IMG/VR virus record: IMGVR_UViG_3300017928_000057
Location: 1 to 21,076 of that record
Source: a virus
DNA: 21,076 bases
Strand: one strand, 5' to 3'
Every line of letters begins with the position of its first letter. Position 1 is the stretch's first letter. Positions 12,166 to 15,728 of this stretch are shown here, in pieces. The translations under genes were made by a program, and so were the position numbers. Under the pieces are notes generated by a model. It had not been told where the DNA came from. It saw only the letters and a program-made list of their open reading frames with translations, and ran no database searches.

Positions 12166-12241
12166 GCCTCTTTAGTTCAAAAGCAGAATTACTGATTTGT
12201 ATCCAGTAGATGCCGGTGCGATTCCTAGGCAAGAGGCTCCA
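12166..12241 (+). tRNA. tRNA-Thr (anticodon TGT), with irregular T-arm
   Basis: The acceptor stem GCCTCTT/AAGAGGC pairs perfectly and is followed by T73 and an encoded CCA. The D-stem is GTTC/GAAT. The anticodon arm is ACTGA-TTTGTAT-CCAGT, with one A-C mismatch next to the loop, giving anticodon TGT (reads ACA). The T-arm is unusual: TGCC-GG-TGCGATT-CC-TA-GGCA needs a two-base TA bulge on the 3' side, and the loop has TGC instead of TTC. This could be a genuine degenerate phage tRNA or a decayed one. Confidence 0.7.
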
Positions 12242-12245
12242 ATAA

Positions 12246-12322
12246 GCTACTTTAGTCCTCGTAGGAAGACACCAACTTGGTAAGTTGGTATGAGGTGGGT
12301 GCAACTCCCACAAGTAGCTCCA
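12246..12322 (+). tRNA. tRNA-Thr (anticodon GGT)
   Basis: The acceptor stem is GCTACTT/AAGTAGC, followed by T73 and an encoded CCA. The D-arm starts GTCC and contains GTAGGAA. The anticodon arm CCAAC-TTGGTAA-GTTGG is perfectly paired and gives anticodon GGT (reads ACC/ACT). The T-arm GTGGG-TGCAACT-CCCAC is perfectly paired, with TGC instead of TTC in the loop. It begins four bases after the preceding tRNA, so they are one transcript. Confidence 0.88.
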
Positions 12323-13231: not shown

Positions 13232-13585
13232 GGGGTCGACTTAGATTCGACGGGGTAAAAACTCGACGGAATGATACAAACGAAGGAGATTACACCTTTC
13301 AAAGTAATCAACGTTTGAATGCCAACGATAACGGCTTCGCAATGGCAGCTTAATCGCTCCATTTGTCCCAAGATGAGATTGTCTTGGTAATCAAGGGGCA
13401 TTAACCACTAAGACTGGATTATGTAGTATGGCTACGGACTATATAATTAAGATAACAGTAGATGATTCGCTTGAATGAGTATCAAGCTTTGTTGTTAATA
13501 ACTAAGCAAATTAACTAAGTTTGTGAATGAATTTCGTTGATGACGTACCTCGGACTCGCGGGGCAGTGCCGCGACGACTCCACCA
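13232..13585 (+). ncRNA. ssrA: tmRNA (ssrA), complete, tag ANDNGFAMAA
   Basis: The 5' end GGGGTCGACTTAGATTCGACGGG is the tmRNA hallmark (GGATTCGACGGG-like), and GGGGTCG pairs with CGACTCC at the 3' end (one G-T pair), followed by A and an encoded CCA. The resume frame at 13321-13353 reads GCC AAC GAT AAC GGC TTC GCA ATG GCA GCT TAA, encoding ANDNGFAMAA, close to the Escherichia coli tag in its first residues and ending in a hydrophobic-Ala-Ala degron. tmRNA rescues ribosomes stalled on messages lacking a stop codon and marks the product for proteolysis with SmpB, which would be host-supplied. The T-arm TCGCGG-GGCAGTG-CCGCGA has a non-canonical loop. The 354-base length is normal. Confidence 0.95.
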
Positions 13586-13626
13586 AAATATTGAACGTTT
13601 CCACCACAACTGATATATAGTTATGT

Positions 13627-14166
13627 ATGGAACCACCGATAAAACTTAGTTGTGCAAATTGTGGTAAAAAATTTGATAAGATAGCCAAAGAATATCGTCG
13701 CCAACTAAAAAAGGGTAACACGAGATTTTTCTGTTCTCTTAACTGTTCTGCTATCAAAAACAATGAAGAAAATCCGAGACCCGGTAATCTTAAAAACCTT
13801 AGACCAAGTAAGAAAGATGAATATACACCATTTAGATGGTTTGTTCTACGAGCCAGATATAGAGATGGTAAAAAACACTACGGTTGCGATATTACTGCCG
13901 AATATATTAAAGATTTGTGGGAGAAACAAAAAGGTATTTGTCCCATTACTGGATGGAATTTGATATTACCAGATGGAACTGATAAGGCTTGGAAAAATGC
14001 TAGTCCAGCTAATGCTAGTTTGGATAGAATAGACAATACCAAAGGTTACATACAAGGCAATGTCCGTTTTGTAGCGGTTATGGCAAATCTTGCACGTCAA
14101 ATTTTTACTGATGAACAACTTATAGATTTTTGTCAGTCAGTTGTGAGCGCCCACCCCAACAACTAA
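13627..14166 (+). CDS. HNH endonuclease with zinc-finger N-terminus
   Basis: A 179-residue protein. CANCGKKF and FFCSLNCSAI give two cysteine pairs at the N-terminus, resembling the zinc-binding segment seen in phage HNH proteins. The C-terminal half has GICPITGWNL and ASLDRIDNTKGYIQGNVRFV, the typical 'sLDRID...GYxxxNVxfV' HNH signature, in which the usual catalytic His region is variant. It starts 41 bases after the tmRNA and is AT-rich. The probable role is free-standing homing at or near the tmRNA locus. The nuclease signature is recognisable, but activity cannot be judged from the sequence. Confidence 0.72.
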   Translation: MEPPIKLSCANCGKKFDKIAKEYRRQLKKGNTRFFCSLNCSAIKNNEENPRPGNLKNLRPSKKDEYTPFRWFVLRARYRDGKKHYGCDITAEYIKDLWEKQKGICPITGWNLILPDGTDKAWKNASPANASLDRIDNTKGYIQGNVRFVAVMANLARQIFTDEQLIDFCQSVVSAHPNN

Positions 14167-14281
14167 TATCTTGATATAGGTATCATCATGAAGGACTATC
14201 TGTAGATTAAAACTCGTGCGCCTCCTTAACAGCCAAATCATCAACTGTTACTTTGTTTTTGATTTTTAAGGAGATACTTCA
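14167..14281 (+). promoter_or_regulatory. Leader region before the 14282 gene
   Basis: This 115-base gap ends with a strong AAGGAGA site 6 bases before ATG 14282. A possible TTAACA...TACTTT pair upstream is weak. It contains a tiny frame ATG AAG GAC TAT CTG TAG (14188-14229 up to TAA), another ATG followed closely by TAG. No tRNA or terminator was found. Confidence 0.3.
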
Positions 14282-14677
14282 ATGGATAATGCACTAAAGA
14301 ATAGTAATACTAAATTTGTTTTGATTGGCAAAATTAATGGCTTGGCGGATCAGTCCAAGAAAGCCAGAATTCATATTAAAAAAGCTAAAACCGAGCAAAG
14401 GGTTTGGAAATTAGCTTATCGTAAGCATGTTGTGGGAATTGATATTCGCCATCACCTATTGGCATATGCCTTTCTGCGTGGCAAGCCGTATCGCAAGGTA
14501 GAAGCTAAATGTAGTGAATTCAACAAGCCCTATCCCTATTTAATCTTTAAAGTTATTGAGCAGCACGCACCGTATTATGTTTCGTACCAGTTTAGAGAGA
14601 GCGGCGTTGGCGTTAGAAACTACCAACCTACCCTGAATGACGTTCAAGGTTGGCTCAGTGGTTTGGAGGGTCTTTAA
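14282..14677 (+). CDS. Hypothetical basic protein, 131 aa
   Basis: A 131-residue protein with a strong ribosome-binding site (AAGGAG). It is basic and Lys/Arg-rich in the first half (SKKARIHIKKAKTEQRVWK). A mixed region with many aromatic residues follows (LAYAFLRGKPYRKVE, PYYVSYQFRESGVGV), and the end is acidic (WLSGLEGL). The basic first half might bind RNA, which would fit its place inside the translation module, but I recognise no family. Its stop lies 3 bases before the amber-containing ATG of the HD gene, so the two are probably co-translated. Confidence 0.6.
   Translation: MDNALKNSNTKFVLIGKINGLADQSKKARIHIKKAKTEQRVWKLAYRKHVVGIDIRHHLLAYAFLRGKPYRKVEAKCSEFNKPYPYLIFKVIEQHAPYYVSYQFRESGVGVRNYQPTLNDVQGWLSGLEGL
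14665..14670 (+). promoter_or_regulatory. Ribosome-binding site placing the HD gene start at 14681
   Basis: GGAGGG lies 10 bases before the ATG at 14681. The alternative ATG at 14708 has no comparable site. The position therefore favours initiation upstream of the in-frame TAG at 14687-14689. Confidence 0.55.
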
Positions 14678-14680
14678 CAC

Positions 14681-15259
14681 ATGCCCTAGCTTGAACTCAT
14701 CCGAGACATGCAACAGTGTCCCCAAACCGAAACGCAATCTGTTTATCAGCATGGTCTCTCTGTTAAAGAGCATATTTTCCAGGTGATTAGCTATCTGGAA
14801 ACTGGATACATCTCTGGTGCGTGGCGATTGCCCCAATGGCTTATTGAATATCGCACACAGATTCTTGATAAACTTCTCCCCAAAGAAATTATTGAAGAAT
14901 ACGCAATTTTTCATGATTGTGGAAAACCTTATTGCCTTATTTTTGATGAAAATGGGAAAAGGCATTTTCCTAATCATGCCGAAAAATCTTATCATACCTG
15001 GCTTTCTATTGGGGGTTCTGAACAAGCTGCAAAATTGATGAGAATGGATATGATGATTCATACAATAAAGTCTTCTAATATTGATGACTTTATTACGCAT
15101 CCTGAAGCGATTACTCTACTAATTGCCGGGCTGGCTGAAATTCACTCCAATGCCAAGATGTTCGGCGGAATCGAATCTGATTCTTTCAAAATTAAGTGGA
15201 ATCAAATTAACAAACGTGGTCATGCTATTTGTCAGAAATTATTCAAACAAGGAAACTAA
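14681..15259 (+). CDS. HD-domain phosphohydrolase with in-frame amber codon at position 3
   Basis: Read with TAG (14687-14689) as sense, the product has 192 residues. The HD-superfamily metal pattern is present: H near YQHGLSVKEH, then FHDCGKP (His-Asp about 78-79), NHAEKS, and MIHTI. After the TAG comes LELIRDMQQCPQT, which resembles the start of HD domains in CCA-adding-enzyme and related phosphohydrolases. That stretch lies partly upstream of the next ATG (14708), so the longer form is likely the true one. A start at 14708 would give 183 residues without a ribosome-binding site. The substrate is unknown; nucleotides or tRNA ends are possible. The gene is followed one base later by PTH2, which has the same feature. 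Confidence 0.65.
14687..14689 (+). other. In-frame TAG at codon 3 of the HD-domain gene
   Basis: ATG CCC TAG CTT GAA CTC: the amber codon is in the frame of the HD protein and comes after the ATG that has a ribosome-binding site. It would need a TAG-reading tRNA, and two tRNAs with anticodon CTA are encoded downstream. Confidence 0.6.
15249..15253 (+). promoter_or_regulatory. Ribosome-binding site of the PTH2 gene
   Basis: AAGGA lies 7 bases before ATG 15261, an ideal spacing. It marks that ATG as the start although an amber codon follows at codon 4. Confidence 0.65.
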
Positions 15260-15260
15260 T

Positions 15261-15596
15261 ATGTGTTTATAGAACGAAAAACTGTATATTATCGTAAGAA
15301 AAGATTTAACCCCAGGAGCTAAACTGGCACAATCAGTGCATGCTGCTTTTAGATTTGCGGATGAGTGGAGATATACTACTCAAAAATGGCTGGACAATTC
15401 CGAATACATTTGTATTTTGGAAATTGAGAATGAAAGTCAGCTAAAAGAATTATTACAACGAGCTCGGGAGCTTGATATTCCTAACTCTAGTTTTACTGAG
15501 CCTGACTTTAATAATTCATTAACTGCCATCGCTCTAGCGCCATGCCCAGAAAGTAAAAAACTTTGCAGTGCACTGCCGTTAGCCCTGAAAGAATAA
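15261..15596 (+). CDS. pth2: Peptidyl-tRNA hydrolase 2 (PTH2-like) with in-frame amber codon at position 4
   Basis: The frame reads ATG TGT TTA TAG, then NEKLYIIVRKDLTPGAKLAQ and SVHAAFRF. This is the conserved PTH2 start, with Lys and the Gln-His-Ala active-site region. SFTEPDFNNSLTAIALAP and ALPLALKE complete the fold. Full length is 111 residues, normal for PTH2 (about 115). No ATG, GTG or TTG occurs between the TAG and GTG 15336, which lies inside the catalytic motif; a start there would remove the first strand. The gene therefore appears to need the amber codon to be read. PTH2 releases peptides from stalled peptidyl-tRNA. A CTA-anticodon tRNA follows 48 bases downstream. Confidence 0.75.
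15270..15272 (+). other. In-frame TAG at codon 4 of PTH2
   Basis: ATG TGT TTA TAG AAC GAA AAA CTG: the amber codon precedes the entire conserved PTH2 domain in the same frame. It is the strongest single case for amber readthrough in the window. Confidence 0.75.
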
Positions 15597-15644
15597 AAGT
15601 TACAGAAACAGTCGACATATAGTGGGAGAGGTTCTTCCATTCAT

Positions 15645-15715
15645 CCGCCTTTGGTATAGTGGCTGTGCCGCCAACTCTAAATTGGCAGAGCTGTGTTCAA
15701 ATCACAGAAGGTGGG
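15645..15715 (+). tRNA. tRNA with anticodon CTA (amber suppressor)
   Basis: The acceptor stem CCGCCTT/AAGGTGG has seven pairs (one G-T), with G73 followed by CAA, so CCA is not encoded. The D-arm is GTAT-AGTGGCT-GTGC. The anticodon arm GCCAA-CTCTAAA-TTGGC is perfect and gives anticodon CTA, which reads TAG. The T-arm CTGTG-TTCAAAT-CACAG is perfect with a canonical loop. The variable loop is short (class I), which argues against Leu, Ser or Tyr identity. The charged amino acid cannot be deduced; G73 is compatible with Gln among others. It lies directly after the PTH2 gene. Confidence 0.85.
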
Positions 15716-15728
15716 CAAAGAAATAATT

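Follow-up and report, generated by a model that had tools for sequence, protein, structure and literature searches.

A candidate stop-codon gate paired with phage suppressor tRNAs on a small translation-related cassette

The stretch of viral DNA considered here, positions 1 to 21,076 of IMG/VR virus record IMGVR_UViG_3300017928_000057 (hereafter the window), is a 21 kb piece of a large phage that encodes IF3, Thg1, NadA, transfer RNAs (tRNAs) and a transfer-messenger RNA (tmRNA). On its plus strand lies a compact cassette in which two genes carry an in-frame amber codon just past the start. A small basic protein gene with a normal start (14282-14677; 131 aa, pI 9.9) is followed by a gene for an HD-domain protein, which begins at ATG 14681 (ATG CCC TAG), has TAG as codon 3 at 14687-14689 and ends at the stop 15257-15259. 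A PTH2-like gene comes next, beginning at ATG 15261 (ATG TGT TTA TAG) with TAG as codon 4 at 15270-15272 and its stop at 15594-15596, and 48 nt past that stop lies a tRNA(CTA) of amber suppressor type (15645-15716), a cloverleaf by ARAGORN call, by its match to RF00005 (43.5 bits) and by a fold z of -2.4. A preliminary description of this DNA had reported the gene order, coordinates, strand, early TAGs and 48-base tRNA spacing, all of which are confirmed; the observation of early TAGs beside a tRNA(CUA) is real and well beyond chance. Absent from that description were two further plus-strand elements, an amber-gated leader micro-open reading frame (micro-ORF), MKDYL[TAG]IKTRAPP-stop, at 14188-14229 with its TAG at 14203-14205, and the tmRNA gene, a neighbor of the cassette at 13232-13585 (RF00023, 89.9 bits), which also adjoins the HD gene in four relatives (L004, L005, L008 and L012). 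L003/L150 (43 kb) represents the same population as the window at 100% identity and is not independent of it.

Among close relatives, the arrangement is strongly conserved. A search with the HD protein returned 11 loci, two of them identical at the protein level and the remaining nine 62-73% identical. In all nine independent relatives, an ATG is followed by one to seven variable codons, a TAG and then the conserved protein. The PTH2-like gene is TAG-gated in the same relatives as well (ten records, nine independent), and a same-strand tRNA(CTA) lies downstream in every HD relative except L011, where the locus is cut short. The preliminary description had counted, as part of what would refute its proposal, a lack of conservation of the early TAGs where relatives share the gene order; they are kept there, so that this half of its own objection falls away. 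Use of UAG itself as an initiation codon, suggested by its position where Met would be expected, was rejected, as a separate ATG, often with a Shine-Dalgarno (SD) sequence, stands one to seven codons upstream in every HD relative. The ten records that hold these loci, amounting to about 1.3 Mb, were also scanned for a start with SD, an early stop and then a long frame, and no convincing early-TAG gene besides the HD and PTH2-like genes was found in them, the other hits being chance-like or having a normal start right after the stop. The PTH2-like gate of one record (G007), MSL[TAG]IKPGDKLYV, was passed over by the SD filter and found by reading.

The relation between gate and tRNA can be followed across a much broader set of sequences. 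Two scans of IMG/VR yielded 119 loci; 136 loci were scored automatically, and 102 PTH2-like loci were left after dereplication at 90%. A TAG gate with a CUA tRNA accounts for 63 of these, with two TAA/UUA and one TGA/UCA pairs and one instance each of an internal TGA with UCA and an internal TAG with CUA; 11 more are TAG-gated without a suppressor tRNA nearby, and 23 are ungated, 17 of them lacking any suppressor tRNA. Mismatched pairs of gate and tRNA number zero among the 102 loci, and no gated gene there is accompanied solely by a non-cognate suppressor. Re-scoring by hand assigned six loci to the gated class, three directly (L191, L213 and L228) and three via HD (L260, L165 and L259). Among full-flank loci so re-scored, 52 gated loci have a suppressor tRNA and five do not, as against one and 10 of the ungated (Fisher 1e-7, this and the other p-values being indicative because the locus rows share descent). 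In the tree, the sister of TGA-gated L249 is L250 and that of TAA-gated L159 is L176, both of them TAG-gated, and the ungated PTH2-like genes form several separate groups. The single TGA and TAA gates are thus nested within TAG lineages, and stop and anticodon have switched together, which bears out the tie between amber gate and tRNA(CUA) that the preliminary description had drawn from one locus. One PTH2-like gene, L187 (8001-8309, in the record of L015), has an internal TGA just before a GK-like motif and a tRNA(UCA) 3.3 kb downstream.

The immediate surroundings of the gate are likewise far from random. In 76 of 80 loci it falls at codons 2-5. The base that follows is A in 57, G in 22, C in one and T in none, so that a purine occurs in 79 of 80, compared with 64% at control codons 3-5 (p 2e-14) and 45% after real TAG terminators (p 3e-12). 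Just after the TAG, pN/pS is 0.40 for PTH2 and 0.35 for HD, against 0.88 and 1.73 in other frames; on these ratios, selection on the codons immediately past the gate is purifying in this frame but not in others.

Gated PTH2-like genes are distributed widely among phages. They occur in the huge phages LR745206, LR756500, LR756501, LR756504 and LR756511 and in Acinetobacter ME3, Salmonella Arash, Cronobacter GAP32, Erwinia SNUABM_19 and Tenacibaculum pT24, and in the mycobacteriophages Myrna, ScoobyDoobyDoo, IkeLoa and I3 the gene begins GTG/ATG-TAG-GTG. Fusions of the two domains stand behind one gate, in the order PTH2-HD in pT24 and HD-PTH2 in XacN1 and CM1. Genes for GAP32-type HD proteins have an internal TAG in place of the start-proximal gate; in GAP32 itself (L101, 2977-3543) it lies about 46 codons in, is kept in Erwinia SNUABM_19, and is the reason that the gene is annotated as separate ORFs. 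The gate accounts for the annotation of several of these genes (in GAP32, Arash, ME3 and XacN1) as truncated or split, a blind spot of gene callers in which a stop just past the start conceals where a gene really begins. The PTH2-like genes L106, L189, L192 and L262 each contain two successive in-frame TAGs. In RaK2 and Hallingskeid, the PTH2-like genes are ungated and a tRNA(CUA) was not found nearby. Canonical PTH2 paralogues in genomes with a gated PTH2-like gene are ungated, with one exception. For Atu_ph07, which has a UCA suppressor, the prediction of a gate failed, its PTH2, gp680, being canonical and without an in-frame stop.

A third gated element is the leader. In the window, it ends CGT GCG CCT CCT TAA and is separated from the basic protein gene by 52 nt. 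For the suppressor tRNA of phage Summit, no target could be identified by those who described the phage (PMC9022506). Summit has no PTH2 or HD match, yet leader, basic protein and tRNA are all present, with SD-ATG AAG TAG GTC TAC AAG CCG CCG TAA immediately 5' of gene 069 and the tRNA; leader and CUA tRNA recur in the Summit relatives L392 and L396. Over about 108 loci, micro-ORFs ending in Pro-Pro and a stop are TAG-gated in 24 cases (22 on the cassette strand), TAA-gated in two and TGA-gated in one, a few of the 24 overlapping or appearing to be chance, and within 3 kb of PTH2 they number 13/531 against 1/1420 (p 4e-7). The order of leader, then basic protein is common to the window, L008 and L155, and also to Summit, there with KPP; the window, L155 and L008 have a RAPP end, and other leaders have RPP or KPP. 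The gene after the leader, which relatives of the basic protein follow in several phage groups, mostly encodes a small basic protein that bears an AYxxxRG-type motif. A tblastn search of the phage collection with the window basic protein gave no match. Profile comparisons (single comparisons) connect three groups of basic proteins at E values of 2e-8, 3e-6 and 4e-5, the first linking the window protein to the Summit 069 group. Because its family follows an amber-gated leader in many relatives, the basic protein is probably part of the same circuit, though ungated in the window. RAPP is known from experiments to be an arrest motif (PMC10951233, PMC12992588), and the window leader resembles the RAPP arrest leaders (ApdA, ApdP and others) in being a small ORF with a C-terminal RAPP-like motif upstream of a gene. 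Unlike them, the leaders described here are amber-gated and very short, Pro-Pro immediately precedes their stop, and most of them end in RPP or KPP. By this analogy we infer that the leader may arrest ribosomes and thereby control the basic protein.

The window PTH2-like protein matches PF01981 (E 4e-11; 43.6 bits against a cut-off of 23), its family profile matches archaeal Pth2 2zv3 at E 1e-10, and Q19, H22, E75 and T83 are invariant in the family. Some divergent members score below the PF01981 cut-off, and in NCBIfam equivalog-level Pth2 models were matched at 28.5 bits against 126 and 26.4 against 82, short of both thresholds. As the divergent PTH2-like protein does not keep the lysine that archaeal Pth2 has in its GK motif, its hydrolase activity is only putative; PTH2 has been proposed to free peptidyl-tRNA in jumbo phages (PMC7824862). 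The HD protein has an invariant metal-binding motif (H75, D76, H96, D120 and H124, with H21 nearly so), is weakly recognized by profiles (five of 25 members match PF01966, at E 1e-3 for the best) and in its HD region weakly resembles the poly(A) polymerase 3wfo, of tRNA-end type (E 1e-3). In G007, a better-scoring PTH2 paralogue (L018, G007:C1:89722-90144) has an in-frame TGA within its GK-A-[TGA]-AQ motif; ARAGORN calls no UCA tRNA in that record, and the TGA is either an error or another gate.

Taken together, these patterns point to a site-specific stop-codon gate on a translation-rescue cassette, opened by a suppressor tRNA of the phage, and this is the explanation that we regard as probable. 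A ribosome would start at the ATG, reach UAG a few codons on and terminate unless the phage tRNA(CUA) supplies an amino acid there; synthesis of the HD and PTH2-like proteins would thus depend on readthrough, as would extension of the leader to its R(A)PP end. We strongly infer from the sequence comparisons that readthrough by the phage tRNA takes place and is efficient. What the gate is for can be said with less assurance. An active suppressor tRNA would also begin to read ordinary UAG stops and so produce stalled ribosomes, and the enzymes predicted to clean up peptidyl-tRNA and tRNA ends would be made in proportion to it, in a feed-forward manner. Such a cleanup-on-demand loop is plausible because a stop-reading tRNA would create stalled ribosomes and because tmRNA is encoded next door, and feed-forward control as the purpose of the gate is offered tentatively, at somewhat short of an even chance. 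The broader proposal, evenly poised between acceptance and doubt, is of a widespread circuit in standard-code phages in which the suppressor tRNA would serve as both signal and key, opening leader and PTH2/HD gates, metering suppression and calling up cleanup enzymes in proportion, while stop and anticodon coevolve as lock and key. Sensing of RF1 alone is disfavored because UGA and UAA versions of the gate exist.

The position of the tRNA is not fixed. It lies 0-4 kb downstream in most relatives, upstream in L237, L241, L248-L250 and L255, inside the terminal repeats in XacN1 and 8 kb away in LR756511, and a promoter scan around the window tRNA gave background level, which argues neither for nor against a separate tRNA promoter. 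The preliminary description had envisaged a delay switch on a single transcript, possibly with a homeostatic loop; its gate and tRNA link stand, but because the tRNA position varies in this way, a self-contained unit with one transcript does not hold generally. Missing tRNAs were sought by pattern scan and further ARAGORN runs, by which CUA tRNAs were recovered in LR756511 and in the record of L164 and a low-stringency candidate for L232.

Several observations weigh against a tRNA-opened gate. For gated LR756504, L166/L168 and L224, partial scans found no recognized suppressor tRNA, and gated LR745206 has a low-stringency CUA candidate only. Conversely, the ungated records L184, L254 and L264 contain a CUA tRNA, at a great distance from the PTH2-like gene, and in L167 (UCA) and L105 (UUA) a suppressor tRNA lies beside an ungated PTH2-like gene. 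To these may be added the six loci that needed re-scoring by hand, the shared descent of the locus rows, the leader having been noticed after the fact and being absent from many loci, the GK-motif lysine that divergent PTH2 does not conserve, and, in the mycobacteriophages, a GTG directly 3' of the TAG where a downstream start is possible.

The rival that survives best, unlikely though deserving of notice, accepts readthrough but gives it no regulatory role, the gate serving to make the gene reliant on the tRNA (as an addiction, or to bar competitors or hosts from using the gene) or to have one needed residue inserted. That suppressor tRNA and gated gene are usually neighbors would suit such dependence. 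A single special residue is improbable, however, because the suppressor tRNAs are diverse, differing widely in sequence and discriminator base, and recurrence of the gate on the same translation-related module and an arrest-type leader suggests control instead. Less credible still, and to our minds improbable, is the possibility that the TAG is unread and ends a mini-cistron, ATG-NN-TAG, with reinitiation or a non-ATG start just past the stop. ATT, a possible rare start, is the commonest codon after the gate (30/80), GTG directly follows TAG in the mycobacteriophages, and HD has a conserved Met seven codons past the TAG. Yet reinitiation predicts no match between stop and anticodon, and TAG/CUA, TGA/UCA and TAA/UUA pair without exception; many post-gate codons (AAC, ACT, GTT) are not starts, purifying selection acts on the codons between TAG and any ATG, GTG or TTG, and the internal TAG of GAP32-type HD genes offers no such option. 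Genome-wide use of genetic code 15, with these being two of many TAG codons, is very improbable: the required tRNA(CUA) is encoded and TAG is a rare terminator (4% of genes with at least 100 aa), but it still ends 62 genes, early TAGs were confined to HD and PTH2 in the scanned records, none of 87 loci gained coding density specific to TAG readthrough, and no locus looks TAG-recoded. Sequencing error, pseudogenes or chance, conceivable for metagenomic contigs, can be dismissed, as isolates from several genera (GAP32, ME3, Arash, pT24, I3 and Myrna) share the gate with dozens of independent contigs, and selection past the stop is purifying.

A tRNA-opened gate would have both natural and engineered counterparts. 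In stop-codon-recoded phages (codes 15 and 4; Borges 2022, via PMC10879173; PMC9523058), a phage suppressor tRNA also reads in-frame stops, a role in timing phage genes is proposed, and several stops are described in many structural and lysis genes, genome-wide. Here, by contrast, one small module carries one start-proximal stop in a phage whose code is otherwise standard, and the three stops are all represented, with a separate tRNA for each. Pyrrolysine decoding likewise employs a dedicated tRNA(CUA) for a few genes, with TAG remaining a rare stop. The tRNAs described here differ in being diverse and ordinary-looking and in having UCA and UUA versions, and the genes are unrelated to methylamine metabolism. 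The synthetic "leak dampener" (Ho et al. 2020, PMC7969014) combines a stop codon with a controlled suppressor tRNA as a coherent feed-forward gate in engineered amber and opal versions; the gate described here, if it works as proposed, would be its natural counterpart, with translation-related genes behind it. Suppressor tRNAs without known targets have been reported in the standard-code phages XacN1 (PMC5852040) and Summit (PMC9022506), and the gated genes are likely targets that can be tested in phages with laboratory hosts (I3, Myrna, Summit and GAP32). No description of gated PTH2 or HD was found in the open-access literature, subscription papers lying outside that search. Suppressor-tRNA-dependent translation in phages is already known, but a dedicated, covarying, start-proximal gate would, if readthrough were demonstrated, arguably count as a circuit of a new kind.

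Two further observations concern other tRNAs. Upstream of the cassette, the window contains a side-by-side tRNA pair (12166-12237 and 12246-12322), the first seen only by Rfam (30 bits). In G007, one ARAGORN tRNA call, at 13569-13647 (L055), has an anticodon of four bases (taat).
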